IMG/VR virus record: IMGVR_UViG_3300022752_000306
Coordinates: 1 to 27,907 of that record
Length of the DNA: 27,907 bases
Reading direction: 5' to 3' (one strand)
DNA from: a virus
In this document: piece after piece, positions 1 to 25,415 of the stretch
Layout of the letters: every line of letters starts with the position of its first letter
Position numbering within the stretch: position 1 is the stretch's first letter
Made by a program: the position numbers and the translations under genes
The notes under the pieces: model-generated
Seen by the model: only the letters and a program-made list of their open reading frames with translations
Told to the model about the DNA's origin: nothing
Database searches by the model: none

Positions 1-41
1 ATCTCAATAAACTCTTCCTCTGTGCAAGCTGCCTGTGCCAT
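1..41 (-). CDS. 5' end of a leftward gene, partial (product unknown)
   Basis: Reading leftward, an ATG at 41-39 opens a frame MAQAACTEEEFIE that runs off the window edge after 13 codons. A GGAG Shine-Dalgarno lies 7 bases upstream of the ATG, which supports it as a real start. The gene is divergent from the zinc-ribbon gene at 113. The peptide, with Cys and acidic residues followed by EEF, resembles the start of some phage HTH proteins, but 13 residues are too few to name a function. The open frame and the ribosome site are seen; the gene identity is unknown. Confidence 0.6.
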   Translation of the reverse strand, partial: MAQAACTEEEFIE

Positions 42-70
42 GATCGCTCCAAATTTTGGAAGACGGATGG

Positions 71-99
71 GTTATACCACACTAATAAAAAAATTTCAT
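71..99 (-). promoter_or_regulatory. Weak leftward promoter candidate in the divergent gap
   Basis: On the - strand TATAAC (71-76) lies 17 bases from ATGAAA (94-99), matching the sigma70 -10 and -35 boxes at 5/6 and 4/6. It would drive the leftward gene starting at 41. The surrounding gap (42-112) is AT-rich. No convincing rightward promoter is visible there. Confidence 0.25.
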
Positions 100-112
100 T
101 AAGGTGCAACTT

Positions 113-310
113 ATGATTTGTCCATACTGCGCTGACCCTAAAACAACGGATGGCTACCCGACAAGAGTAATAGACACACGCCGGTTTTTTGATGATGCAA
201 GACGGCGGTTCTACATGGAGCGCAAGCGCGTATGTACGCATTGCGATCAACGGTTTACAACACGGGAGTTCTCCCCTGTCATAAAGGAAAAAACTAATCA
301 TGCAACCTGA
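113..310 (+). CDS. NrdR-like zinc-ribbon protein lacking the ATP-cone
   Basis: A 65-residue protein with two CxxC pairs (C3/C6 and C41/C44) in the arrangement of the NrdR N-terminal zinc ribbon. MICPYC is followed by VIDTRR (19-24), then a basic stretch and RVCTHCDQRFTTREF. In NrdR this ribbon binds the NrdR boxes of ribonucleotide reductase promoters. The ATP-cone that follows in the ~150-residue bacterial repressor is absent. A GTG at 104 is in frame, but ATG 113 is preferred because AAGG (101-104) sits 8 bases upstream of it. The gene ends in ATGCAACCTGA, the same bases that end the next gene. A stand-alone ribbon could compete with the host repressor, but that role is inference. Confidence 0.7.
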   Translation: MICPYCADPKTTDGYPTRVIDTRRFFDDARRRFYMERKRVCTHCDQRFTTREFSPVIKEKTNHAT

Positions 311-311
311 C
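300..311 (+). repeat. Left copy of 12-bp direct repeat flanking the fucosyltransferase gene
   Basis: ATGCAACCTGAC, identical to 1146-1157. Both copies overlap the last codons of the upstream gene (both proteins end in AT) and start a frame reading MQPD. The two copies bracket the fucosyltransferase gene. Confidence 0.8.
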
Positions 312-329
312 TTGAGGGTAAGAACATGA
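300..329 (+). pseudogene. Probable 5' remnant of a duplicated copy of the gene at 1146
   Basis: An ATG at 300, overlapping the end of the zinc-ribbon gene, opens MQPDLRVRT and then stops. The intact gene at 1146 begins MQPDTQVRI, so 6 of the first 9 residues match (M, Q, P, D, V, R). The first 12 bases are identical. An AAGGA-like ribosome site lies upstream at about 283-290. This looks like the original start of the 1146 gene, left behind when the fucosyltransferase gene entered between them. It could instead be a translated leader peptide or coincidence. Confidence 0.45.
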
Positions 330-1156
330 GTCATCCTTTGAATAAATACATAGTACAAATGGGGTGGGGTGGGTTCGGAGATAGAACTCAAGCCTTGTGT
401 TACTGCATGACGTTGGCAAAGACTAGGAACAGGGCGTTGGTTGTTAACTGGGAGGACGTGCAGTTTTCACAATCATTCCATGACTTCTTTCACATCATAG
501 ATCTACCCTACGCATACACCGTACCTGATGCACCAACTTATCCAAGAATATTTCGTCACCTGCGAAACCAAGGCGGCGATTGGTGGATATATGAATTAAA
601 AGATTATAGAATTGATACCGCAAACGAGCAGGTGATTGTGCACTCAGGGCGTGGGTTTAGAAGTTATAATTGGAAAACATTAATAACGCATCTAAGATTT
701 ACCCCACAAACAGCCAAAGAAGTTTTGGACATACTCACGAAGACTGAGAACTTGTTGGGCGACCTACCACTTGTACACCTGCGAGGAACAGATCGGGCTT
801 GGAAAGCGGAAGACGTACATGCGCTAGCCGAAAATAACGGCATAGCGGGAATTTTATCGGACGACAAACGTGCGGTGGATGCCTATATGTCAGTGCACCC
901 TCAGTCAGTTGTTATTAATACAGGAAGGGATGACGGCAAACCTCTGCACAAAACTGATCCGTCGAGAGATAGAAATATAAAGATGTTGGCAGACTTCTGT
1001 CTGTTAAGTAAGCACGGTACGGATGCACTGAACAAAGAGAGTTTATTTTGGAGAGCGGCAAAGAAGTTAGGCACGAGTGTTGATAAATGGTTTATTCCCG
1101 CCGGGAAGTTAGAGAAATGGGAAGACATTTGTTTTAGGAGTAAATATGCAACCTGA
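326..1156 (+). CDS. NodZ/GT23-like fucosyltransferase (GT-B glycosyltransferase)
   Basis: A 276-residue protein with the three-motif layout of NodZ/alpha-1,6 and O-fucosyltransferases. GWGGFGDR (13-20) with a following helix and A-KT-R-L--NW resembles the NodZ GGFGD...TGR.L..DW start. VHLRGTDR (150-157) matches the HxRxxD nucleotide-sugar motif. LADFCLLSKHG (221-231) followed by KESLFWRAA (237-245) matches the donor-binding D...L...S..S.FS..A motif. Such enzymes transfer fucose from GDP-fucose; the acceptor here is unknown and could be a virion protein, host surface glycan or other phage product. GAGGG (314-318) lies 7 bases before the ATG. It overlaps the next gene by 11 bases. The flanking repeat suggests late acquisition as a cargo gene between replication genes. 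The glycosyltransferase call is fairly firm; the fucose specificity is inferred. Confidence 0.65.
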   Translation: MSHPLNKYIVQMGWGGFGDRTQALCYCMTLAKTRNRALVVNWEDVQFSQSFHDFFHIIDLPYAYTVPDAPTYPRIFRHLRNQGGDWWIYELKDYRIDTANEQVIVHSGRGFRSYNWKTLITHLRFTPQTAKEVLDILTKTENLLGDLPLVHLRGTDRAWKAEDVHALAENNGIAGILSDDKRAVDAYMSVHPQSVVINTGRDDGKPLHKTDPSRDRNIKMLADFCLLSKHGTDALNKESLFWRAAKKLGTSVDKWFIPAGKLEKWEDICFRSKYAT

Positions 1157-1157
1157 C
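1146..1157 (+). repeat. Right copy of 12-bp direct repeat flanking the fucosyltransferase gene
   Basis: ATGCAACCTGAC, identical to 300-311. It forms the start of the intact 69-residue gene and the end of the fucosyltransferase gene. Confidence 0.8.
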
Positions 1158-1355
1158 ACACAAGTACGCATCAAGAACACAGGAGAAATAGGCTACGTTG
1201 TTAAAGAAGAACCCAATGACATGTTGTACATACGCATACCATCAGACAACAACTGGCCGTTCCCAAGCTATGCGTATCTCAAACGTAATGCTGTTGTTTT
1301 AGTAAAAGTTGTTAAGAATCAAACACCGACCGATATAGAAGAAGCACCTTTTTAA
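1146..1355 (+). CDS. Small conserved-looking protein, possible SH3-like barrel
   Basis: A 69-residue protein of unknown function. The pattern DTQVRIKNTGEIGYV...LYIRIP...VVLV, with short alternating beta strands and a Gly turn near the start, resembles small SH3/KOW-like barrels; this is inference from pattern only. AGGAG (1136-1140) is 5 bases upstream of the ATG and lies inside the end of the fucosyltransferase gene. The next gene (DNA polymerase) starts 8 bases after the stop, so the two are probably co-translated. A broken 5' copy of this gene is seen at 300-329. Confidence 0.7.
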   Translation: MQPDTQVRIKNTGEIGYVVKEEPNDMLYIRIPSDNNWPFPSYAYLKRNAVVLVKVVKNQTPTDIEEAPF

Positions 1356-1363
1356 GGACACAC

Positions 1364-3190
1364 ATGGATATCATAACAGTCGATTTTGAAACGTATTACG
1401 ACAAAAATTACTCACTATCGAAGATAACAACCGAAGAGTACGTGCGCTCTGACCTGTTTGAAGTTATTGGTGTTGCCGTGAAAGTCAACAACGAGGAGAC
1501 AGCTTGGGCTAGCGGTACGCACAAACAAATCAAGGATTGGTTGCATGGGTCATTCAAATGGTCGGACGCGATGGTTCTCGCCCATAACACAATGTTTGAC
1601 GGTTCCATACTTGGTTGGCGCTTTGACGTTTGTCCTCGCGTATGGCTTGACACTCTGTGCATGGGTAGGGCTTTGCATGGTATTGAGGTGGGTGGGTCGC
1701 TCAAAGCCATGGCAGAGCGTTACAAGTTGGGCGAGAAGGGTACAGAAGTTATAGCTGCTATCGGTAAACGACGCGCCGATTTCGATGAGTACAGCCTGTC
1801 TAGGTACGGGGACTATTGCATCAATGATGTGAATTTAACCTATGAGTTGTTTAAGCAAATGGTTAGGGGATTCCCTAAAAAAGAGTTACAACTTATTGAT
1901 ATCACACTGCGGATGTTTATTGAACCAAGACTTGAACTCGATAAGAACATGCTGCGGCAGCACTTGAAGGAAGTGCGGGAACGCAAAGAGAAGTTACTGG
2001 CTGACTGTGGGGTCGATAAAGAAGAACTGATGAGTAATCACAAGTTTGCAGAACTGCTGCTACAGTTCGGCGTTGCACCTCCGATGAAAGAAAGCCCTGC
2101 GACAGGACAGCAGACGTTTGCGTTTGCTAAGAACGATGAAGGGTTCAAAGAACTAGCGGACCATCCCGATGAACGGGTGCAGACATTGGTTGCGGCACGG
2201 CTAGGTACAAAGTCAACCCTTGAAGAAACGAGAACACAACGGTTTATTGATATTGCAGAGCGTGGCAAGCTGCCGGTTCCTCTTAGGTACTACGCAGCGC
2301 ATACGGGTCGATTCGGGGGTGACGATAAAGTTAATATGCAGAATCTGCCAAGCCGTGGAGAGAACGCTAACAAGTTAAAGAAAGCGATCATTGCACCGGA
2401 CGGGTATCAGATCATTGACGCAGATTCTTCACAGATTGAAGCTAGGGTGTTGGCGTGGTTGGCCGAGCAGAACGACTTGGTGGAAGCTTTTGCTGAGGGT
2501 AAAGACGTTTATAAGAAGATGGCATCAGCGATCTACGGCAAACCTGAACACGAGATATCAAAAGAAGAACGGTTCGTAGGTAAGACCACAATCCTCGGTG
2601 CAGGGTACGGCATGGGTGCGCTCAAGTTTCAAATGCAGCTTAAGACGTTTGGAGTAGACGTTGACATCGATGAGGCCCGCAGGATCATTGACATTTATAG
2701 ACGCACAAACGACTGCATCACACGGTTGTGGCGTCAGGCGCAACAAGCTCTCGTTAATTTATCAAGGAGGGATGAGTCGCCTCTGGGTAGGGAGGGTGTT
2801 CTACAATTAGTACCCGCCGAATCGGCTATCCGACTGCCGTCGGGGTTGCTCATGCGTTACGACGATTTGAAGTTTACCGAAACCGACAAGGGGGTAGAGT
2901 TTCATTACAAGACACGCAAGGGTCGCACCAGAATTTACGGTGGGAAAGTTATAGAGAACGTGTGCCAAGCGATTGCTCGCTGTATTATCGGGGAGCAGAT
3001 GCTGAAAATTTCTAAGCGGTACAAGGTGGTGCTGACCGTGCATGATGCGGTTGCAATTGTGTGCAGGGATGTCGAGTTAGAAGAAGCCAAGTTGTACGTA
3101 GAACAAAGCATGCGGTGGGTGCCTGAATGGGCAGTGGGTCTTCCAGTTAATTGTGAATCAGGATCGGGTAAGAGTTATGGAGATTGCTAA
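1364..3190 (+). CDS. Family A DNA polymerase with 3'-5' exonuclease
   Basis: A 608-residue replicative polymerase with a proofreading exonuclease domain at the N-terminus and a Pol I-type polymerase domain. Exo I is VDFET (D7, E9), Exo II AHNTMFD (H74-D79), Exo III YCIND (Y151-D155). Polymerase motif A is DSSQIEAR, with D354 as the catalytic acid; motif B runs R403-x3-K407-x7-Y415-G; motif C is VHDAV (H560, D561). All catalytic residues expected for the family are present and it has no 5'-3' nuclease domain, as usual for phage enzymes. The residue equivalent to E. coli Phe762 is Leu411. AAGGA lies 5 bases before the ATG. The end overlaps the next start by 14 bases. It would copy the phage genome together with the primase-helicase at 7801. 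Confidence 0.97.
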   Translation: MDIITVDFETYYDKNYSLSKITTEEYVRSDLFEVIGVAVKVNNEETAWASGTHKQIKDWLHGSFKWSDAMVLAHNTMFDGSILGWRFDVCPRVWLDTLCMGRALHGIEVGGSLKAMAERYKLGEKGTEVIAAIGKRRADFDEYSLSRYGDYCINDVNLTYELFKQMVRGFPKKELQLIDITLRMFIEPRLELDKNMLRQHLKEVRERKEKLLADCGVDKEELMSNHKFAELLLQFGVAPPMKESPATGQQTFAFAKNDEGFKELADHPDERVQTLVAARLGTKSTLEETRTQRFIDIAERGKLPVPLRYYAAHTGRFGGDDKVNMQNLPSRGENANKLKKAIIAPDGYQIIDADSSQIEARVLAWLAEQNDLVEAFAEGKDVYKKMASAIYGKPEHEISKEERFVGKTTILGAGYGMGALKFQMQLKTFGVDVDIDEARRIIDIYRRTNDCITRLWRQAQQALVNLSRRDESPLGREGVLQLVPAESAIRLPSGLLMRYDDLKFTETDKGVEFHYKTRKGRTRIYGGKVIENVCQAIARCIIGEQMLKISKRYKVVLTVHDAVAIVCRDVELEEAKLYVEQSMRWVPEWAVGLPVNCESGSGKSYGDC

Positions 3191-3362
3191 GGTGATTGAT
3201 TACGCGCAGTGGTTGCTTGAAGTGGATAAAGGGCAGCGCAAGATGTATGACACGATGCAGGCGAAAGATTACGAACAGGCGATTGCGACAGGGTTTGAAA
3301 TGATCGCCGCCCTGAAACTTGCCATCAATGCAGTCAAACACGAACAGGAAACCCAACGGTGA
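3177..3362 (+). CDS. Small helical protein between polymerase and nuclease
   Basis: A 61-residue protein of unknown function, predicted mostly alpha-helical by eye (MEIAKVIDYAQWLLEV... AIATGFEMIAALKLAINAV) and rich in Ala, Lys and Glu. ATG 3177 is chosen over an in-frame GTG at 3153 because no ribosome site precedes the GTG. The chosen start has only a weak AAGAG and overlaps the polymerase end by 14 bases, so translation may be coupled. Its own stop overlaps the GTG start of the nuclease gene. No motif gives a function. Confidence 0.6.
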   Translation: MEIAKVIDYAQWLLEVDKGQRKMYDTMQAKDYEQAIATGFEMIAALKLAINAVKHEQETQR

Positions 3363-4033
3363 ACGCTAATCCCTCATGGTCTTTCTCTTCCATTAAGACG
3401 TTTGAACAATGTCCGAAGAAGTACTTTCATCTTAAGGTGGTGAAAGACTATGCAGAGGATCAGAACGTTGAGCACTTGTTGTACGGCACAGAGTTTCATA
3501 AAGCTGCCGAGGATTACATCAACGGTAACTCTTCGTTTCCTGAGAAGTTTAAGTTTGCTAAAAGTTCTTTGGATAATCTTAAGAACCGCCCCGGTCAGAA
3601 GCTATGCGAATATGAGATGGGGCTGACCGCTAACTTAGAACCCTGCGGGTTCAAAGATCCTAACGTGTGGTGGCGAGGGATTGCCGACCTGATTATCCTA
3701 GAAGATAATGGCGTGGCTAGGGTGTTGGATTACAAGACCGGATCGTCTGCCAAGTACGCAGACAAGGGTCAGTTAGAACTTATGGCGTTGGCGATGTTCA
3801 AGCACTTCCCACAGGTGCAGTCAATCAAAGCGGGTTTGCTATTTGTCGTCGCAAAGACTTTTGTCAAAGCATCTTATAGCAAGCATGATGAGGCAGAGTT
3901 GTGGGAGAAGTGGCTTAAGAATTATGGGCGCATGAAGACTGCCCATGAGAAGAACGTCTGGAACCCGCACCCGTCTGGTCTATGTAAGAAGCATTGTGTT
4001 GTATTGAGTTGCTCTCATAACGGAAGGAACTGA
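3359..4033 (+). CDS. PD-(D/E)XK nuclease (RecB/Cas4-like) with cysteine cluster
   Basis: A 224-residue protein of the RecB/Cas4-type nuclease family (PDDEXK_1). It opens with WSFSSIKTFEQCPKKYF, the usual start of the family. GTEFHKAAEDY (43-53) carries the conserved His (H47), GIADLI (107-112) the first metal Asp (D110), VLDYKTG (122-128) the D124-x-K126 catalytic pair, and Q138 the QxxxY-like helix position. C18 plus C209, C213 and C218 at the C-terminus match the one-plus-three cysteine layout that holds a 4Fe-4S cluster in Cas4 and AddB. The spacing (C-x3-C-x4-C) differs slightly from the usual. The start is GTG, overlapping the previous stop as GTGA. A role in recombination or end processing during replication is likely; exact activity is not shown. 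Confidence 0.88.
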   Translation: MNANPSWSFSSIKTFEQCPKKYFHLKVVKDYAEDQNVEHLLYGTEFHKAAEDYINGNSSFPEKFKFAKSSLDNLKNRPGQKLCEYEMGLTANLEPCGFKDPNVWWRGIADLIILEDNGVARVLDYKTGSSAKYADKGQLELMALAMFKHFPQVQSIKAGLLFVVAKTFVKASYSKHDEAELWEKWLKNYGRMKTAHEKNVWNPHPSGLCKKHCVVLSCSHNGRN

Positions 4034-10896: not shown

Positions 10897-10924
10897 CCCC
10901 GGTGCAACACCGGGGAATTTTTTT
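10897..10924 (+). terminator. Strong rho-independent terminator between convergent gene blocks
   Basis: CCCCGGTG (10897-10904) pairs with CACCGGGG (10908-10915) across a 3-base loop and is followed by AA and seven T residues (10918-10924). It ends rightward transcripts. On the opposite strand the hairpin is followed by CGAAAAAGG, with no U-run, so it does not look bidirectional. The leftward virion operon's stop codon (10925-10923) lies inside this T-run. Confidence 0.92.
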
Positions 10925-13900
10925 AATCTTCATCCCCATCAAACTCTGCGGCACTAGCTAACAACTCCGCACGTAAACCTTTATCTAACGTAATCCCTGC
11001 ATACATCTCAGCGGAAGTTTTCATGTGTTGGGCCATGGACGTACGTATAGTATCGGCAGTAATCGCTCTACCGGGATGTTTTTCTGATAGCTTAGACATC
11101 TTCTCAAGGATATCCGCAACTTCTTCACTGTCACCGTTACGCGTAGCGATATAGTATCTACGTAGAAGCTTAGTCCTATTTTCAATGACGCTACGTTCGA
11201 TGTTTTTCAGGGACGCATTGATTTCTAGCTGGCGGGTGTATTCGGCAGGCGCGAACCCAAAGAACTGTGCAAAGGCACTCCCCAAGCCAATCTCCCCGAC
11301 GATGGGATCACCGCGCAGCGTATTCGCACCTTCAGTAGCAAACCGTATAGCCTTCATAGCGTTACCGATTGCTGCGGGGCTTACTTGCTCTAACCCACGT
11401 TGAACTTCACCTTCACTAATAAGTTTGGCTCCACGCGCCATCCGTTCACCGACACCATACACAGGACCACCGACAAGCTGCAAGAAAGACAGCACGATAT
11501 TTTCTTGATCTTTATACCCTGTGCTTTGCATCAGCAGATCGGTTAACCCAATACGGTTGGAGATTGCAGTGCCTGTGATGTAGTTCAGTGCACCGTTAAA
11601 CATACCTTCGCCTAAGTACTTACGGGCAGCGGTTTCAAAATCGTCCTCGTCGTCATCCTTAAACATGTTGTACAGCACCGCAGCTATACCAAACATCGGG
11701 ACACCCTGCGCTCCTGCTAATAATGCGGAAGATGCGTAGATACCTGCGATCTGTCGTTTGGCAGCGGCTCGTACTTGTGGATCTTCGGCAGCTAGCATGT
11801 CACGTGTTGTCTTGAACAACATGTAGTACATCGACACGCCATAACGTTTGTACATAAACATGACTTTGCCAAGAGAGTTCTTAGCAAGTAGAGGTGCACT
11901 ACCTGCACTAGCGCCACCGTTCAAGAGTTCAGTTTCCTCGATGGCTTGACGCGCCGCATCCTGTCGCTGCTCAGGTGTGGTTGTTCCGTCTTTACCTCGC
12001 ATCTTATCCAGTGCCAACTTATAGGAAGCCAGCATGGTTACCTGTCGGTTCATGCGTTCGCCGTGGTGAAACAGGAAGCTTGCATACTTATTAATTTTAT
12101 CTAGGATCGTTTCATCTTTCCCAGACTCAAGCAGGTCTTGCATCATCGAGCGGTTGAGCAGGCCGTACTCATTGGCTAGGCTTGCTAGCTCACGCAGTTC
12201 TTTTATGCTCTCAGGAGTATTTTTAGCGTCGAAGTCGTAGTTATCAAACGAAAAGCCAGCTCGCATCTGAATCTTGCTGCCGTCTTTCCCAACCTCTGTG
12301 CCTGACATCTGAGCAGAACGCTTTAACCCACTACCGAAGAAGATTCGGGTTGCTTCACCCACTGCCTTAGTAGCTTCTGGGTATCCATACTTGCCACCGA
12401 GATACGGCATAACCACCAGCGGCACGTGTGAGGAGTTCACGATAACCGATGACACGTTACCACCCAGCGTCCAGAAGAACGCACCAGAGGTCAAGGTTTT
12501 TGACAGCGGTGAAATGCTGGGTGATACCAGTGTCCTAATATGATTGTTAAGCTCTGTCAGCAGGGAGTTTGCCGTATCCGTATTATTTTTTGTTTTGACA
12601 AACGTTTCCATCTCGTCACGCAGCTTGTACATCTTGGCTGAGTATTCAAGGTTCGCAAGCTGGTGCGCCATGCTGATGGACTTGCCATAGAACGCTTGTG
12701 CGGCGTTGGGGTTAAAACCTAGCGTGCCTTTACGTGTTCTAAATGATTGAGCAAAAGAAGTTTCCGGCAAGGTTGCCAAGAACGCACGCATGATCTCATC
12801 AGTAGTTTCGGGGGCTACCTTGTTTGCTTCTAAGATACGCAGCACATTATTAACAAACGATGTGGGCGGTGCGTTCTTGTAAGTCTTCTGCGAGAGTTGT
12901 GCAAACTTTTCAATAGACCCCTTCTGCACATCTGAGTTCTGTTCAAGTTGTTTGACCGCAAGCTCACGCTCTACGGATGTCGGGAAAGCTTCTACAAACT
13001 TCTCAACATTACCGTCCGGTCCTTTGCCGATATACGAAAGCCAATATCCACCTGAGCGAGTAAGCGGGAAGTAGGGTTCAATCTTTCCCTTGACTGCAAG
13101 CCGTTTGTAGATCTCAGTCTTTAGGCTCTTGCTTTCTTCTTTGGAGATACCAGCAGCGTCGATTCGATTAAACAGCAACCCCATTAAATCTTCTTGATAG
13201 TTGGCGTATGTATCCCGCATCTGTTTGTAGATAGCTTGCCCTTCTTCGCCTAACGACCTCCACTGCGGTTGCAACCGATCCCAAATGTCTACCTTTTTGG
13301 CCCCGCTCTTGGAGGTTTGACCATCGTAGTCACTACGATCTTTGCTGGGGTCAACTTCCTCAAGTGTTGAAGTTGTTACTACGTTATTAAGGACGGTCTC
13401 TTTATTCTTATCGGGCTTTAACCACCGCTGAATACGGACCATTGTCGCATCAGCTTCACGCCTGCGGCGGTCAATTGCACCACTCCACTGCTTTTCTAAG
13501 GTATCGAGTTCTCCTGCCATCGGAATGTCTTGAACCGCAACAGACGTTAGAGCGTTAAGCGGTAAGCTACGCAACAGTACCTTGTTCGACAAGCCCGGAA
13601 TCTTGTTACGTATAAGCTCGTAAACGCTAGACGCCCACTGGTTGTTGATCGCAGGTGTAGACAGTATCTTGTCGTCAATGAGTTTGAATACGTCTTTTGC
13701 AGAACCAAGCATCGATGCCTGATACAAAACGCCGGTACCACGTGACTGTGCATCAGGGGCAAGTAGATCTAACAAAGATCGGTCAACCGTATCCAATGCA
13801 GAATTAAGACCTTTTGTATCCAACCCTATCAAGGTCCGCAAGTAGTTAGTTACGGAATTAGAGAACCGTTTCCACGCACTGATCTTTTCCCCACGGGTAT

Positions 13901-16871
13901 TGATTGCGGCGAGTCTGGCTTGGAAGGCTGGGTTGCTAAATGCTTCTGATACAAAATCTTCAATAGACCGCGCACCGTACGCCGTATCGATATGATCCTT
14001 GACGGTGTTATACAAATCAGATATCTGCTTGTATGCAGGGTGTGACTTGTTACCTAGTACCTTGGCAAATGCGGCGTGCGTTGCTTCGTGTAGCAACGAA
14101 TGAGGACTCATGTATTTGTCCGCATTTAGCCGGATAGTGTTGGTGGTGTAGTCGTACGAACCTGCGAGGGGTCGGCCTGCGGCGTTCTTCAGATCCTCAA
14201 CGAGTTCTACCTTGACACCTTTCATCAAAGGCATCAGCACCTTAGCGATTTGAGATGTTCTGCCCAGATGAGATTTACCCAAAAGATCTAATGCACCTTG
14301 CAGGTTCCCATTCTGAAGCGCCAGAACAACTGACGGGTGCATGGGTTGGTAGAAGAGCGCGAACTCGCGCTGCAATTCTTCGGGTGCAGGTTTAACAGGC
14401 CCACTGGGCAATCCGGCAAAGTCCATCGCACCGGGGCGTAGCCCCAACATCTTGGGCGACTTATAGATACCGTGTTCGGCAAGCGGTCTTAATTTTGGAG
14501 CAGTTGCTTTCGGTCCAGCGGGGCCAGTGCGTTTGGCATCGGTCTTTGGCTCTTCCTTCTTTGGCTCTTCCTTCTTTGGCTCTTCCTTCTTCGGGGCTTC
14601 CTTCTTCGGGGCTTCCTTCTTTAGTGTGTCCCCAGCAGCCTCTTTTCGCATTCCAGCTTCACCAGCAGGTTGTGCACCAGCACCCACTCCATCTCGTTTA
14701 GGTGCTCCAGACTTTTCGGTATCTCCACTGGGCTTGGTTGACTCACCACTTGGAGTGCCAGCTCTACCTGCTTGTTTGTCAGTTTGTTTAGGTTCATCTT
14801 TCTTACCCTCTGGCTTGGGTTTTGGTTTGGGGGCGGGTGTAATGACCCCACCTTTTGGACCGAACAGTTCCCCTTGTTTCGCAAGCGCATTAAAGGCTTG
14901 CATAGCCACACGTTCAATAGCTTGTTTGGTACTCGTCGCTAAGTTAGGGTTTGAACGCACATCCACCAGTACATCACGCACCTGCGTTTGCTGGTCAGGC
15001 ACCGACATATCTTTATTGATAAGACGTTTGTAATACCCTGATTGTTTGGAGAGTCCTGTCTTATCTAACAAGTCACCAGTCAATACAGGCGACGGTGCAG
15101 CTTCTACTTCTTCGACAGCTTCGGGTGCAGGTGTAGCGGCTACGCCTTTTGGTTTGCCCATCCCCGGAAAGCCCATCTGCTCAGGCACACGGGTTTCTTT
15201 CTTTTCTGGGATACCTTCTTCTAGTGTTTTTAATTCCGACGGAGCAGACGGTTCTACTTCGGGTGTAGCAGGGGTCGCTAAACGAATATCATAGACGCGT
15301 TTGATTAAAGCTCGTTCGGCATCCGTTAGATTTGTATTAGTGATACCGTTAGCCGCAAGCTGCCGATTAAATTCGCGGGGAATATTTTTTGTATCGGACT
15401 CAATGATAGGCAATAAGATTGCCATCCGAGTTTGTTCAGTGGTCTTGTTCTGGGTATCTTGTAGGCGTGCGTTGACACTTTCCAGATCAGATTCAAACCT
15501 AAGTCTAACTTTTTCTGCTTCCGCACGGGCTGCTTCTTCAGATTTCTTACGTGCTTCTTGTACACGTTCTATTTCTTTTTTGTTTTGAGAACCCGCGTAT
15601 AGCTCAATAATCTGCTGGTTAAGTGTGCGCCCGCCCGTCAGGGGTAGTTCTTTGGTTTCGGTATCGCGGTCAGGTCGGACTTCGGGTGCAGATACATTCA
15701 AATCTGCTAGTAGACTACGCACCCTATCAAAGTCTTTTTGTTCAACCCGCAAGTCCCCCGTTTCGGGATCAGTTGTGGCGTTAAATTGTTGTTGAATAAA
15801 TCCGCGTACTACTTCTTGTTCGCTATCTGGAACTCCACGAAGTGATATTGGTCTGGTCTCGTCAGCCGGTATCGGTGCTGGTGGACCCTCGCGTTTGGCA
15901 ACTTCATCCCGCGCTTGTGTCAATTCAGCCGGAAACAACTCACCCTGTGGGGCTTCAGCAGTTGGGGGTTGTATGGTAGACGGTAGTGCTGGGGTCGGTG
16001 GTGGTTGTTTAGCAGGGGGTTGTTCAGCAGGGGGCTTTTCACCGAATCGCGCTTGTCTGGCTTTACGCCCGACGGTCATATCAAGAATCAAACTTGCAAG
16101 CGCACCGACTCCTGCACCATAGGCACCTTCTTCTCCGGCACCCTCAACAATTGGTTGGTTAGGATCGTAAACACCTTTAGCAATAAGATTCTGAGAGATC
16201 TTCTGGGCAGCTTCTGTCGCACCCTCAATGCCACCACGTGCAAGTGCCGTAGTGATAATGCTCTTAAATCCGGGTAAGTTAGGTGCAAGTAAGTCAAGCA
16301 AACCAGTCGGAGCACCGAGCATGGTGGCAGTACGTCTTTCTTCTGCGGTAGCACCTTTGGCTTCTGCGGCTTCTCGTGCTTCACCTGCACCTGCTGCTAC
16401 ACCCAAACCAGCCGCAGCCCCCCGACCCAGTAGGCCGAATGGTCCCATAAGAAAGAACGGTAATGTGGAACCAAGCCCCTCACTAAGTCTGCGCCCAACA
16501 CTTTCTTCGTAACCTTCTCTAGCTTCAAAAGGTTTTTTGGCAATCCCTGCAATTTCTTTGATCTTCTCCCGTGCAGCCTTTTCGGTTTCTTCGGGAAGCG
16601 CGGCAGCGATACCAGTTCCTGCGGTCTCAGCAAGACCAATCGCACCGGGGATAACACCTTTGAAAAATTCTTTTACGTTACCGCCAAACGTTGTTTCTGG
16701 CGGTTCGGGCGGTTGGGCGCGTAGCTCTGCTCTGCGTCGGGTTAACTCTTCAATCTTTTGATTTTGCTCGTATCGCTTAGCCGCAAAGATAAGATCTTGG
16801 TCCGTTGCACCTTCTGGTCCTTGTATTCTGTAGGTTACACCTTCGGGTGTCGTGACACGATACGTCGGCAT
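10923..16871 (-). CDS. Giant internal virion (ejection) protein with HEATH metallopeptidase motif
   Basis: A 1982-residue protein, the last of the leftward virion operon. The N-terminus (1-35, MPTYRVTTPEGVTYRI then EGATDQDLI) is a short module common at the start of large phage proteins. Hydrophobic Gly/Ala-rich segments lie at about 72-92 and 131-163. Residues ~285-880 are low-complexity Pro/Lys/Glu/Ala linkers with charged coiled-coil stretches and five KKEAP/KKEEP repeats. H928-E929-A-T-H932 followed by E971/E976 (SIEDFVSEAF) is a gluzincin-type zinc-peptidase signature. The C-terminal 900 residues contain helical and hydrophobic segments (~1460-1500, ~1705-1735) and end in an acidic tail. 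By size, layout and position it is probably ejected with the genome, like T7 gp16, and may cleave a host or virion protein. AAGGAA lies upstream of the ATG. Confidence 0.8.
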   Translation of the reverse strand: MPTYRVTTPEGVTYRIQGPEGATDQDLIFAAKRYEQNQKIEELTRRRAELRAQPPEPPETTFGGNVKEFFKGVIPGAIGLAETAGTGIAAALPEETEKAAREKIKEIAGIAKKPFEAREGYEESVGRRLSEGLGSTLPFFLMGPFGLLGRGAAAGLGVAAGAGEAREAAEAKGATAEERRTATMLGAPTGLLDLLAPNLPGFKSIITTALARGGIEGATEAAQKISQNLIAKGVYDPNQPIVEGAGEEGAYGAGVGALASLILDMTVGRKARQARFGEKPPAEQPPAKQPPPTPALPSTIQPPTAEAPQGELFPAELTQARDEVAKREGPPAPIPADETRPISLRGVPDSEQEVVRGFIQQQFNATTDPETGDLRVEQKDFDRVRSLLADLNVSAPEVRPDRDTETKELPLTGGRTLNQQIIELYAGSQNKKEIERVQEARKKSEEAARAEAEKVRLRFESDLESVNARLQDTQNKTTEQTRMAILLPIIESDTKNIPREFNRQLAANGITNTNLTDAERALIKRVYDIRLATPATPEVEPSAPSELKTLEEGIPEKKETRVPEQMGFPGMGKPKGVAATPAPEAVEEVEAAPSPVLTGDLLDKTGLSKQSGYYKRLINKDMSVPDQQTQVRDVLVDVRSNPNLATSTKQAIERVAMQAFNALAKQGELFGPKGGVITPAPKPKPKPEGKKDEPKQTDKQAGRAGTPSGESTKPSGDTEKSGAPKRDGVGAGAQPAGEAGMRKEAAGDTLKKEAPKKEAPKKEEPKKEEPKKEEPKTDAKRTGPAGPKATAPKLRPLAEHGIYKSPKMLGLRPGAMDFAGLPSGPVKPAPEELQREFALFYQPMHPSVVLALQNGNLQGALDLLGKSHLGRTSQIAKVLMPLMKGVKVELVEDLKNAAGRPLAGSYDYTTNTIRLNADKYMSPHSLLHEATHAAFAKVLGNKSHPAYKQISDLYNTVKDHIDTAYGARSIEDFVSEAFSNPAFQARLAAINTRGEKISAWKRFSNSVTNYLRTLIGLDTKGLNSALDTVDRSLLDLLAPDAQSRGTGVLYQASMLGSAKDVFKLIDDKILSTPAINNQWASSVYELIRNKIPGLSNKVLLRSLPLNALTSVAVQDIPMAGELDTLEKQWSGAIDRRRREADATMVRIQRWLKPDKNKETVLNNVVTTSTLEEVDPSKDRSDYDGQTSKSGAKKVDIWDRLQPQWRSLGEEGQAIYKQMRDTYANYQEDLMGLLFNRIDAAGISKEESKSLKTEIYKRLAVKGKIEPYFPLTRSGGYWLSYIGKGPDGNVEKFVEAFPTSVERELAVKQLEQNSDVQKGSIEKFAQLSQKTYKNAPPTSFVNNVLRILEANKVAPETTDEIMRAFLATLPETSFAQSFRTRKGTLGFNPNAAQAFYGKSISMAHQLANLEYSAKMYKLRDEMETFVKTKNNTDTANSLLTELNNHIRTLVSPSISPLSKTLTSGAFFWTLGGNVSSVIVNSSHVPLVVMPYLGGKYGYPEATKAVGEATRIFFGSGLKRSAQMSGTEVGKDGSKIQMRAGFSFDNYDFDAKNTPESIKELRELASLANEYGLLNRSMMQDLLESGKDETILDKINKYASFLFHHGERMNRQVTMLASYKLALDKMRGKDGTTTPEQRQDAARQAIEETELLNGGASAGSAPLLAKNSLGKVMFMYKRYGVSMYYMLFKTTRDMLAAEDPQVRAAAKRQIAGIYASSALLAGAQGVPMFGIAAVLYNMFKDDDEDDFETAARKYLGEGMFNGALNYITGTAISNRIGLTDLLMQSTGYKDQENIVLSFLQLVGGPVYGVGERMARGAKLISEGEVQRGLEQVSPAAIGNAMKAIRFATEGANTLRGDPIVGEIGLGSAFAQFFGFAPAEYTRQLEINASLKNIERSVIENRTKLLRRYYIATRNGDSEEVADILEKMSKLSEKHPGRAITADTIRTSMAQHMKTSAEMYAGITLDKGLRAELLASAAEFDGDED
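14547..14621 (-). repeat. 15-bp tandem repeat, five units coding KKEAP/KKEEP
   Basis: Five contiguous 15-base units inside the giant virion protein gene code two KKEAP followed by three KKEEP pentapeptides. The bases of successive units differ at one or two positions. It forms part of the low-complexity linker. The same 15-base period occurs in the much longer tract at 21075-22049. Confidence 0.85.
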
Positions 16872-20489: not shown

Positions 20490-23400
20490 TCACCCCCGCA
20501 AAAACTTAAGTAGTTCCATCGTTACTGCATCGTAATCGGTCACCGCACCACCTCTGGAATAAGCGAAAATGGGTGCACGTTTGGGTGCATTTTTGTCTTC
20601 AGTTGCTGGTTTCGGTACTAAAGATCTTAGGCCCGACGGCTCAAGGATACTACCAAAATCATACAAATATTCCAATGCTTTACCTTCTTCCGTCTTGACT
20701 TGCGTCTGTTGCGGAGGCTCTGCCGCAGCCATTTGTTGTAGGGACCGTAAGTTCCCCATGCGCTCTGCACGTAGGGCTAAAGCTGCACGTTGTTCAGCGG
20801 CTGCTTTGGCAGCGGCTTGTTCTCTGGCAATTCGAGCCTGTTCTTGACGACGAAGTTCTTCAAGGATCGACGAATCTTCAGAGGTTTCAGAAGTCTCTTC
20901 CTCGGTGGTCTCTTCCTCGGTGGTTTCTTCCTCGGTAGTCTCGTCAGATGTTTCTTCCTCGGTAGTCTCGTCAGATGTTTCTTCCTCGGTGGTCTCGTCA
21001 GATGTTTCTTCCTCGGTGGTCTCTTCCTCAGTGGAGGATTGGTCTGTTTCTAAATCGGTGTCAGAGTCATAAGTATCTTCTTCGGAGGTTTCTTCCTCAG
21101 AGGTTTCTTCTTCGGAGGTTTCTTCTTCAGACGTTTCTTCTTCGGAGGTTTCTTCTTCGGAGGTTTCTTCTTCAGACGTTTCTTCTTCGGAGGTCTCTTC
21201 CTCGGAGGTCTCTTCTTCGGAGGTCTCTTCTTCGGAGGTCTCCTCTTCAGACGTTTCTTCTTCGGAGGTTTCTTCCTCGGAGGTCTCCTCTTCAGACGTT
21301 TCTTCTTCGGAGGTTTCTTCTTCGGAGGTTTCTTTTTCTGAGGTCTCTTCCTCGGAGGTCTCTTCTTCGGAGGTTTCTTCCTCGGAGGTCTCCTCTTCAG
21401 ACGTTTCTTCTTCGGAGGTTTCTTCTTCGGAGGTTTCTTCTTCGGAGGTTTCTTCTTCGGAGGTCTCCTCTTCTGAGGTCTCTTCTTCGGAGGTTTCTTC
21501 TTCGGAGGTCTCCTCTTCTGAGGTCTCTTCTTCTGAGGTCTCCTCTTCAGACGTTTCTTCTTCTGAGGTCTCCTCTTCAGACGTTTCTTCTTCAGACGTT
21601 TCTTCTTCGGAGGTCTCCTCTTCAGACGTTTCTTCTTCAGACGTTTCTTCTTCAGACGTTTCTTCTTCAGACGTTTCTTCTTCAGACGTTTCTTCTTCAG
21701 ACGTTTCTTCTTCAGACGTTTCTTCTTCAGACGTTTCTTCTTCGGAGGTTTCTTCTTCGGAGGTTTCTTCTTCGGAGGTTTCTTCTTCTGAGGTCTCTTC
21801 TTCTGAGGTTTCTTCTTCGGAGGTCTCTTCTTCGGAGGTCTCTTCTTCGGAGGTTTCTTCTTCTGAGGTCTCTTCTTCTGAGGTTTCTTCTTCGGAGGTT
21901 TCTTCTTCGGAGGTTTCTTCTTCGGAGGTTTCTTCTTCGGAGGTCTCCTCTTCTGAGGTCTCTTCTTCGGAGGTTTCTTCTTCGGAGGTTTCTTCTTCGG
22001 AGGTTTCTTCTTCGGAGGTCTCCTCTTCTGAGGTCTCTTCTTCGGAGGTTTCTTCCGTGGGTTTTTCTTCAGCGGGTTTTTTCTTTTTCTTGGTTACATA
22101 CTCGTCGATCCGTCTTTGTGCATCGACTTCCGCACTCACCCCTGCGAACTGAGCAACTTCATCATCGGTAGGATTGTCATACCCTAAGTCTTTCATCATC
22201 TGCTTAGCTTCAGCAAAGTCAGTGACTCGTGGGTCAATGTAACTATCGATTGCTTTTGTAAGATCGTCGCCCGTTAAGTTAGACGCTTGTCCTGCAATCT
22301 CTTCTACTGCACCAAGGGTGGGGTCAATACCTGCATCACGCAAGGCTTCTACAGTACGGAAAAATTCTTCTGTCGTAATAAACTTATCGTCCTCTACAAC
22401 TTGTGAGTAGTTTTTAAAATCACCTGCGGTTAAATCGCCCGCTATCTTGGCATTGTTGTTAAACGTCGAAGGGTCTATCTGTTTCGTACCGTCAAGGTAT
22501 TCTTTTAACGTAACGGGATTACCTGCACCATCTTTAGCAACTAATGCAGAATAGTTAATGGCTCCGGGGGCTATCATCGCGGAAGATATAGCCAACCCCA
22601 TCGCACCCCCCATAGCACCTGCGGATTGTGCGTCGTTCCAATTTACCTTTCCAAAAGAATTATATTGTTCAGAAACATTTTGAGAAAATTCTTCACCCCA
22701 GTTAGTGATGTATTGTTTAGTCGCTTCCTTGGCTAACATGCTTGCAGATATTTTGGTCACATCGCCCATGAGCATCTTAACTATGGAGCTGTCTGCAATA
22801 CCAGAACTAATCAAGGAAATACCAAGAGCCTGCACGCCCGTTTTTAAGGCTTGGGTTTTAGCGTACTCTTCTAACGCAGGGTTGTTACCCCCGGCTTTCA
22901 TAATGTTGTCGTAAGTACCGCCAAACCCCGCGCCAAAAGCTTCGCCTCCCTGAAGCACTGCATTAGTACCCAATGCTGCGGAGGTTGCAAGGAATTTAGA
23001 CCCTAAACCTAAAAATACTCTACCCACCCCACCACTTGCCAACCAAGCAGGAGCTTCTTGCACAAATTCTTTGAAGAATAATGTTGCCCCACCTAAGGGG
23101 TACTTCATAGCTAATTCAAAAGCTTTTATAGACTTTGCTACAACTCCTTCTGTAGCTTTCATCTCATTATTAATTAATTGTTCTTGTGCTTTTGTGATAT
23201 CAGACTGCTTATCTGCACCCCATTCCTTAAGCATCTTGGCGGTGTTGGATACTACATTTTCACGCCTAACTAACCCCGTACCCCATGCGGCGTCGTTAAG
23301 TAAGCCTGCTAATTCCGCAAGACCGTAAGTACCTGTGGCTAGGACATCTTTTAGAACGGCTTTAGTAGTATCGCTCCCGCCATACTTAGCAACTAATTTG

Positions 23401-25415
23401 TTAGCGTAATTAAGCGCGTTTATAGCGCCCATCGCTGAGGAGTCATCGGGTTCGTTTATAGGGTTGTCTTTTGTCGCACCTTCTGGATTGGTAGTAATAA
23501 AAGCCCTGCCACCATTTTCTGTATACCCTACATATACATCTTCAGGTAAAGACGCACCGTAGCTTTTAAACCAATCTGCTATCTCATCCTTAGAAGCGTA
23601 CCGCATCCCATACGGCAAAATAAAAGAACCGTTTGGTGGGCGGTTTTCATTGTAATAGTTAGAGGGTTGCCCACTTACGTCAATTTTTACTGCACCATCG
23701 GAGGTTACAACTTGAGATGTCGGCCCCGCTAATATGTCACCTAATGATGCACCTGCAATATCTTTTACGGTACGGTTATTAGCCCAAGCATCAAATGCAG
23801 TATCAAAATTATTACGTAATTCACTGAGTTGTGAATCAGATATTGACGAAAGAGGTGTATCGGGGGATACGTTTGCTTTTGCATAATCAATAAGCTTTTT
23901 TATATATTCAGGACTAGTTTTTATCGCCTGTATTGCAGCAATTTTAGCATTACCAACACTACTTACCAGCGTATCTCTATATGCACCCAGCAACGGAGCG
24001 ATTTGTTCGTCAGTAGGATCTTCTCCAAACTCTGATTTCCATATTTGCTTAACATCTTCGTCGGTAGCTTGTAAGTTACCGTTGTTAAACTCACCTAAGT
24101 CAATCTGATCTATTTCAGATTGAGATTTCCCTGCATGTAAGATTTCGTCAGGGTCGTCAGTTATAGAACGTATAGCCTCCATCGCCACTGGATCGGCTTT
24201 TATACTTCTGATTGCATCGACCGACATGTTGGCTATGCGGTCTTTAGCTTCTGCACTTGCCATAGATTGGGATATAACTTGCCCAATACCCATACCGACA
24301 AACTTCATTGCCAGTGCATTAGGATCAAACTTACCCGTGCGGAAATAATTAATGGCTTCAGCCGCGCCGATCTGAAGCATGATTTTGGAAGTAGGGTCTA
24401 GCTTTTGAGATATTGCGTAGTTACTAATAGCCGAGCTAACCGCAGAATTAACTGCGCCGTTAACCAAAGCTTTCATGGGATCTTCCCCACGGAGCACGGC
24501 GTTTAATGCACTAACCATCGGACTGGCAATTGCCGTAGCGGTCTGCATCGAATTAACAATGCCCGAATCCACCATGGCACCGCCTATGGCTTGCGTAACT
24601 CCTTGTAAGATCTCACCTGTAGCGGCGCTGACAAAAGCTTTACCTAAATCACCACCATTAAAAACGGTGTTAACTGCCGTGCGTACTAAAAATTGAGATA
24701 CCGCAGGTGCTGCCGCTGTGCCGACAACGCTACTGATATAGGGTGCAATAGCCTGACTAATACCGGGGATCGCAAACGATGCGGCAAACGATAGTGCTTG
24801 TACCAGTAGCGGATTTTTCTGTAGAAAATCCGACGCATTCCATTCTGGAACAATAACCGGCGATCCAAAGGCGTCGAGCTGTACTCGATAATCTGAATAA
24901 CCCTTTCCTGCGTTGGTTGAACCAATGACATTGCTTCCCTTGCCGCCCACCATTTTGGTATCAAGTGGTTGGTTTGTTCGCTTGTCAAATAATTCATAGG
25001 TTGTGTAATCGTTATATCCAATTACTTCAGGTGTGTCACTGGAGGCAGAATATATGGGATCTTTACCGACGCCAGTTTTAACGCCAATTTGATTTAAATC
25101 TGAAATGCCTAGGGCGGTGAGTCTTTTTGCGAGATCATCTACATGCCAAGCATCCGAGTTGCCGGGGGTTGTGAAATTAAGTTTGTATAGCGACTTGCCA
25201 CTATTAATCTGGCCTTTGAGAAACTGTATTGTCTCGTCACTAAGCCATTTACCTTCCCACTTTACATCGTTGGGGTGGAGTATGAATTGCTCATACTCCT
25301 CGCGGCTTAGGTTTTGTCCTGTTTGTGGGTTTTGGAATGGCTTTTCTAAAAATTCTGGTTCGTATACCCACCCCTCTTTTAACTCCAACCCAAGCGGTTT
25401 AAATTGATTACTCAT
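20490..25415 (-). CDS. Giant virion protein with 65 tandem TSEEE pentapeptides
   Basis: A 1641-residue protein of unrecognised family. Residues 1-200 look globular. Segments at ~205-310 are Ala/Gly-rich and hydrophobic (LVQALSFAASFAIPGISQAI...), which could insert in membrane or form an internal core. A mixed helical region follows, with a second hydrophobic part at ~770-900. A Lys run (KKKKK) precedes residues 1123-1447, which are 65 pentapeptides (63 TSEEE, one TSEKE and a last TSEED). Residues ~1457-1512 are Thr/Glu/Ser/Asp repeats, then a helical LEELRRQEQARIAREQ stretch and a conserved-looking end, YSRGGAVTDYDAVTMELLKF. Its ATG overlaps the previous stop (ATGA) with no ribosome site, so translation is probably coupled. 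Position in the operon suggests an ejected or internal virion protein. Confidence 0.85.
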   Translation of the reverse strand: MSNQFKPLGLELKEGWVYEPEFLEKPFQNPQTGQNLSREEYEQFILHPNDVKWEGKWLSDETIQFLKGQINSGKSLYKLNFTTPGNSDAWHVDDLAKRLTALGISDLNQIGVKTGVGKDPIYSASSDTPEVIGYNDYTTYELFDKRTNQPLDTKMVGGKGSNVIGSTNAGKGYSDYRVQLDAFGSPVIVPEWNASDFLQKNPLLVQALSFAASFAIPGISQAIAPYISSVVGTAAAPAVSQFLVRTAVNTVFNGGDLGKAFVSAATGEILQGVTQAIGGAMVDSGIVNSMQTATAIASPMVSALNAVLRGEDPMKALVNGAVNSAVSSAISNYAISQKLDPTSKIMLQIGAAEAINYFRTGKFDPNALAMKFVGMGIGQVISQSMASAEAKDRIANMSVDAIRSIKADPVAMEAIRSITDDPDEILHAGKSQSEIDQIDLGEFNNGNLQATDEDVKQIWKSEFGEDPTDEQIAPLLGAYRDTLVSSVGNAKIAAIQAIKTSPEYIKKLIDYAKANVSPDTPLSSISDSQLSELRNNFDTAFDAWANNRTVKDIAGASLGDILAGPTSQVVTSDGAVKIDVSGQPSNYYNENRPPNGSFILPYGMRYASKDEIADWFKSYGASLPEDVYVGYTENGGRAFITTNPEGATKDNPINEPDDSSAMGAINALNYANKLVAKYGGSDTTKAVLKDVLATGTYGLAELAGLLNDAAWGTGLVRRENVVSNTAKMLKEWGADKQSDITKAQEQLINNEMKATEGVVAKSIKAFELAMKYPLGGATLFFKEFVQEAPAWLASGGVGRVFLGLGSKFLATSAALGTNAVLQGGEAFGAGFGGTYDNIMKAGGNNPALEEYAKTQALKTGVQALGISLISSGIADSSIVKMLMGDVTKISASMLAKEATKQYITNWGEEFSQNVSEQYNSFGKVNWNDAQSAGAMGGAMGLAISSAMIAPGAINYSALVAKDGAGNPVTLKEYLDGTKQIDPSTFNNNAKIAGDLTAGDFKNYSQVVEDDKFITTEEFFRTVEALRDAGIDPTLGAVEEIAGQASNLTGDDLTKAIDSYIDPRVTDFAEAKQMMKDLGYDNPTDDEVAQFAGVSAEVDAQRRIDEYVTKKKKKPAEEKPTEETSEEETSEEETSEEETSEEETSEEETSEEETSEEETSEEETSEEETSEEETSEEETSEEETSEEETSEEETSEEETSEEETSEEETSEEETSEEETSEEETSEEETSEEETSEEETSEEETSEEETSEEETSEEETSEEETSEEETSEEETSEEETSEEETSEEETSEEETSEEETSEEETSEEETSEEETSEEETSEEETSEEETSEEETSEEETSEEETSEEETSEEETSEEETSEKETSEEETSEEETSEEETSEEETSEEETSEEETSEEETSEEETSEEETSEEETSEEETSEEETSEEETSEEETSEEETSEEETSEEDTYDSDTDLETDQSSTEEETTEEETSDETTEEETSDETTEEETSDETTEEETTEEETTEEETSETSEDSSILEELRRQEQARIAREQAAAKAAAEQRAALALRAERMGNLRSLQQMAAAEPPQQTQVKTEEGKALEYLYDFGSILEPSGLRSLVPKPATEDKNAPKRAPIFAYSRGGAVTDYDAVTMELLKFLRG
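20881..21045 (-). repeat. Degenerate Thr/Glu/Asp repeat tract coding TTEEETSDE-type units
   Basis: Directly downstream (in the coding direction) of the TSEEE array lies a second acidic array. It contains three 27-base units coding TTEEETSDE-like peptides, flanked by simpler TTEEE units. It uses ACC/ACT ACC Thr-Thr pairs rather than Thr-Ser, so it is a related but distinct expansion. Confidence 0.8.
21075..22049 (-). repeat. 65-unit 15-bp minisatellite coding (TSEEE)65
   Basis: A perfect 15-base period for 975 bases with no indel. Reading the coding strand, the Thr-Ser codons are ACC TCC in 37 units, ACG TCT in 16, ACC TCA in 11 and ACC TCT in one. ACG occurs only with TCT. Eight ACG TCT units in a row occupy 21616-21735. 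A five-unit (75-base) super-period (one ACC TCA unit then four ACC TCC units) is seen at 21946-22049 and just before it. One unit has Glu to Lys (codon at 21335-21333) and the last ends in Asp. Confidence 0.97.

Follow-up and report, generated by a model that had tools for sequence, protein, structure and literature searches.

The sequence motif ATGCAACCTGAC stands at both ends of a single 276-aa gene in the virus record IMGVR_UViG_3300022752_000306, raising the question of how this gene came to lie between two copies of its neighbour's start. Here, we analyse the 27,907 nucleotides of that record (hereafter the window). As the initial annotation had stated, the motif occurs at two positions (Table 1), and no further copy was found in the window with up to two mismatches allowed. 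The zinc-ribbon gene and the 276-aa gene were likewise described as ending on the same bases, and both reading frames do stop on the TGA within ATGCAACCTGAC, 11 bases into the frame opened by its ATG. From the right copy this frame continues as an intact 69-residue gene (MQPDTQVRI...), which we named S69, while the left copy opens a dead frame that reads MQPDLRVRT and then stops. The described match between the two frames holds for MQPD; beyond it, LRVRT and TQVRI share 5-6 of 15 bases, which is chance level, as about 14% of random stretches reach 6. A reading of the left frame beyond MQPD as a continuation of S69 was rejected, the similarity not being above chance.

Table 1. Features around the duplicated motif in the window.
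Feature	Position	Strand	Remarks
Zinc-ribbon gene (NrdR-like N-terminal zinc ribbon)	104..310	+	First rightward gene of the window; ends in GCA ACC TGA, within the left motif copy
Left ATGCAACCTGAC copy, dead S69 start (scar)	300..311	+	Provides the zinc-ribbon stop codon; homology to the empty sites ends at 310
Leader of the inserted gene	311..329	+	GAGGG followed by an ATGA stop/start overlap; more like the gene tails of the phage group than an S69 continuation
Inserted 276-aa gene, possible O-fucosyltransferase-like glycosyltransferase	326..1156	+	Last codons inside the right motif copy; none in the relatives searched
AGGAG, ribosome-binding-like site for S69	1137..1141	+	Within the inserted gene at its 3' end, roughly 5 bases ahead of the ATG; read from the sequence
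Right ATGCAACCTGAC copy	1146..1157	+	Live S69 start and stop of the 276-aa gene
S69, 69-aa accessory gene	1146..1355	+	Neighbours vary upstream and downstream
Family A DNA polymerase	1364..3190	+	Next gene downstream; Pfam DNA_pol_A E=5.9e-39

The proposal that the zinc-ribbon gene once overlapped the 69-residue gene directly could be followed up in relatives, since scans for S69 and for the zinc-ribbon gene recovered seven IMG/VR contigs without the 276-aa gene (L089, L090, L091, L092, L096, L097 and L098, plus duplicate loci). At these empty sites the zinc-ribbon gene joins S69 directly via ATGCAACCTGA, in the context ...AATC-ATGCAACCTGAY, exactly the direct junction that had been looked for, and the concern that no empty-site form might exist is thereby excluded; in L098, S69 is diverged and cut by the contig end. 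Window positions 1-310 are about 91-94% identical to the empty-site contigs, and this similarity ends at 310/311, where 310 is the last base of the zinc-ribbon stop. Across all seven sites, positions 240-299 match at 53-57 of 60 bases and the overlap at 11 of 11, while the 30 bases to the right of the left copy match at 8-10, which is chance level. Around the right copy, 19-21 of the preceding 60 bases and 40-49 of the following 60 are identical. The twelfth base of the motif is C in both window copies and T in six of the seven empty sites. Among the loci compared, only the window carries the 276-aa gene between the zinc-ribbon gene and S69, and no DNA relatives of the window's left part were found in the phage collection. 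The zinc-ribbon protein itself is conserved at 90-96% aa identity in eight contigs; it matches Pfam Zn_ribbon_NrdR (PF22811) with E=1.7e-5 and 25.1 bits, just under the curated cutoff of 27.2, and with only 68 aa it has no room for the remainder of NrdR. A third form of the site is seen in L100 near 1634, where the zinc-ribbon gene ends in REKS with a 4-bp ATGA overlap with another gene.

The S69 of the window belongs to a lineage other than those found at the empty sites. It is 97% identical in aa and 91% in nucleotides to that of L082/L083, where the upstream gene encodes a winged helix, and about 55-72% in aa to the other aligned relatives; against the best-matching S69s behind zinc-ribbon genes, its nucleotide identity is 72-74%. 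In the S69 tree the window groups with L110/L082 (the same contig) and not with the zinc-ribbon S69s (support 1.000), and zinc-ribbon genes adjoin several S69 sublineages. S69 was present in 2 of 37 records searched, which were mostly polymerase relatives and many of them fragments, and none was found in bacterial genomes. Depending on the contig (L110, L113, L114, L117, L120, L125 and others), the gene to its right is a polymerase, an RTPEGRVKDK gene, an MPYVNKPRPYK gene or an exonuclease-like gene. Because these downstream genes differ among contigs, the right side of S69 has been exchanged as well, and with neighbours varying on both sides and so few records carrying it, we regard S69 as an accessory gene with changing surroundings.

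The same 11 bases end many upstream genes. The S69 codons ATG-CAA-CCT-GAY hold a TGA in the frame of the upstream neighbour, and among the 22 S69 loci compared at least five unrelated upstream genes stop there: the zinc ribbon, the winged helix (Pfam HTH_Crp_2 E=5.4e-5), the 276-aa gene, an NREDIV/MTREDI gene and a KTREP-ending gene. As they end on these bases, the last residues of the upstream proteins (HAT, HAA, YAT, REP) are largely encoded by the S69 start. Where no S69 stands behind them, the ends differ, being ...REKS for the zinc-ribbon gene (L100) and ...GARP for the winged-helix gene (L137, L139, L144). Of 18 S69 sequences, collected without regard to codon 3, 17 encode proline 3 as CCT. 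On the S69 tree a single change is inferred at this codon, compared with an average of 4.2 at 13 further four-fold sites and with 3-6 at the remaining prolines. In the sole exception, L119, the codon is CCG; the TGA is lost, and the upstream gene extends until it overlaps S69 by 29 bp. In L112 and L115, CCT is kept although the upstream gene ends at a 4-bp overlap, where it is not needed. The conservation of CCT fits selection on the stop of the upstream gene, in a set of sequences that are few and related, so that the codon counts are not independent. We consider the S69 start to be, rather probably, a portable 3' cap whose hidden TGA ends any upstream gene joined in the right frame. As a more tentative extension, which we think possible but would not put first, it may be a selected, portable stop-plus-start adaptor, with its first bases giving short homology and the site upstream of it being a hot spot of gene capture that leaves countable scars.

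A comparable remnant occurs elsewhere in the group. After the KTREP gene, five contigs (L101/L082, L137, L139, L140, L144) carry a dead S69 start, GTGAACCCTGATACAAAAGTTATTG..., which reads VNPDTKVIVYTFYI up to a stop, and at the same place L142 reads VNPDTKVIVKATGEQR before its stop, with 14 S69 codons retained, giving six contigs with these sister scars (VNPDTKV...). The winged-helix gene comes next wherever the contig reaches it, that is, in four of the five contigs with VNPDTKVIVYTFYI. Here the left and right S69 starts, GTGAACCCTGATACAAAAG and ATGCAACCTGACACACGAG, are different sequences; in L082, the intact S69 further right starts with ATGCAACCTGACACACG, unlike the scar, so that neither is a copy of the other. 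The complete records to which L139 and L142 belong yielded no S69. The joint in L101 can be followed base by base, combining the S69 remnant as in L142, ACAAAA-GTTATTGTT-AAAG, with a donor-type gene end as in L085, GGGAG-GTTATTGTT-TACACG, into AAAA-GTTATTGTT-TACACG. The tail of the donor's preceding gene was carried along ahead of the new gene. These sequences show that the same kind of process acted at least once more in this phage group, when a winged-helix gene entered an S69 overlapping the KTREP gene.

Our preferred history, which we hold to be the best explanation and reasonably likely, is the transfer of a block between two parents. Originally, the zinc-ribbon gene shared 11 bases with an S69 of its own, the arrangement seen in the seven relatives. 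Recombination with another phage would then have replaced this S69 past its 11th or 12th base by a block consisting of the 276-aa gene and its own downstream S69, of a different lineage. The left 11 bases would have stayed because they hold the zinc-ribbon stop codon, and the right copy would have existed beforehand as the overlap of the 276-aa gene with its S69. The remnant extends to the final base of this stop codon, or one base past it, which is the least that can terminate the zinc-ribbon gene. Since the window S69 is of another lineage and at least five unrelated genes share the overlap, the two copies most likely come from two parents, and the sister scars support this reading. Counting against it, our searches turned up no donor carrying the 276-aa gene, so that the window's right-hand parent was not seen; in addition, the C at base 12 agrees with the window's own S69 but with just one of the seven empty sites. 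The 15 bases between the scar and the 276-aa gene resemble those gene tails of the group that close with an ATGA overlap, the best match being L041 (CTTGGGGGTAAGAAATGA); its score of 12 was reached by none of 300 shuffles, in a test that is generous, as shuffling destroys the ribosome-binding site. Among the window proteins scanned, no integrase was seen, as would mark an integron or site-specific cassette, and in appearance the joints are those of simple overlap or microhomology. No protein in the same set was recognised as an annealing protein. A PD-(D/E)XK exonuclease (3359-4033; phrog_69 E=6.2e-19) is a possible recombination enzyme, and a 1982-aa protein on the minus strand (10923-16871) contains LPD39, a large polyvalent protein associated domain (Pfam E=1.4e-15).

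The history proposed in the initial annotation was simpler, with recombination at the 12-bp motif bringing the 276-aa gene in between the zinc ribbon and S69 and copying one start in the process. The identical 12-mers that bracket the gene, the existence of an empty site with a single copy, and the twelfth base, shared by the window copies and differing from most empty sites, are all as expected from such an insertion, and it would suffice if the ancestor had carried the zinc ribbon beside the window's own S69 type, an ancestor that is possible because zinc-ribbon genes adjoin several sublineages. Against this stand the closer nucleotide similarity of the window S69 to another lineage than to any zinc-ribbon S69, the unrelated upstream genes that already bear the same overlap, and the sister scar, in which the two starts differ. 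Entry with a duplication of the junction is therefore not supported, and we regard it as unlikely, though it is the most serious competitor of the two-parent history. Much less probable is that the 276-aa gene is ancestral and was deleted in the relatives between the 12-bp repeats, a deletion that should recreate the exact empty site, as the empty sites bear several S69 types, none of them window-like, the gene occurs in 0 of 50 related records, and seven contigs without it stand against one with it.

Whether the repeat has any historical meaning was also considered. By count alone, the 12-mer pair is not significant and proves nothing, its meaning coming from its position and from the relatives: outside a tandem array, the window holds 134 repeated 12-mer pairs, 76 of these within 1 kb. 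Most repeated 12-mers in the window derive from that array, a long run of dozens of TSEEE repeats (20900-22300) in a 1641-aa protein (minus-strand open reading frame, 20490-25415). The initial annotation's caution that such a match might be common by chance is thus correct as far as frequency goes, but seven empty sites that break exactly at the motif, with the overlap kept, refute a mere chance repeat, to which we assign a negligible probability.

The name fucosyltransferase given earlier to the product of the inserted gene is unproven. It corresponds to a hit to Pfam O-FucT (PF10250) with E=0.27 and 11.2 bits, below the gathering threshold of 31.5, and to motifs seen by eye: an N-terminal GGFGDRTQAL, an HLRGTDR motif and a C-terminal LLSKHG, which we take, as a lead only, to recall the O-fucosyltransferase/NodZ group. 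The protein had no NCBIfam match and no PDB sequence match, and a single-sequence AlphaFold2 model reached a mean pLDDT of 40, too poor for a fold search. No relatives of the gene were found in phages, plasmids, PDB sequences or 50 whole records of relatives, nor, by a short-peptide scan, in IMG/VR and GTDB contigs. Its G+C of 0.44 against 0.475 for the window gives no foreign mark. The product might be a glycosyltransferase modifying a surface or virion sugar, and the stop/start overlaps with its neighbours suggest expression within an operon.

The debate on whether phage mosaicism arises by blind joining or at short shared boundaries usually draws on joints with unknown parents. Where a stop is nested in the next start, no replacement can avoid leaving a readable remnant, from which the order and partners of swaps can be told; here, one gene family displays the empty site, the scar, the microhomology and the new overlap. 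This suggests that overlapping genes may ease rather than block exchange, as a gene newly joined upstream is supplied with a stop by the start that follows it.

Compared with known systems, the window is a clear, recurrent example of phage mosaicism and not a new kind of element. The closest likeness is with the mycobacteriophage Island3 (Cluster I), in which gene 68 is an extra gene next to a 60-bp gene end that is repeated there but occurs once in Brujita, and for which recombination at short shared boundary sequences was proposed (PMC3029335). In both, an extra gene lies beside a repeated short boundary that is single in a relative without the gene; Island3 represents one case with a 60-bp shared 3' end, whereas here the boundary is a start/stop overlap of 11-12 bp, the upstream genes that end in it are of several unrelated kinds, and dead starts have been retained. 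In lambdoid phages, short conserved flanking sequences have been described, and homeologous as well as illegitimate or microhomology recombination discussed (PMC2327257). These joints resemble ours in being mosaic junctions at short shared sequence near gene ends, a feature found here both in the 11-bp S69 start common to several loci and in the 9-bp microhomology GTTATTGTT at the L101 joint, but differ in that the shared sequence of the window is coding, serving one gene as its start and another as its stop. The inserted gene is also like a phage moron, being a single additional gene whose two neighbours adjoin directly in the seven empty-site contigs. A moron has its own promoter and terminator and is expressed independently, whereas the stop/start overlaps of the inserted gene suggest that it belongs to an operon, and it was probably acquired together with the gene downstream of it. 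In the part of the literature that we searched, no description of a stop-codon scar of this kind was found. What distinguishes the present case from these known ones is the nested stop, which means that the downstream start must remain and that the exchange itself writes the scar.
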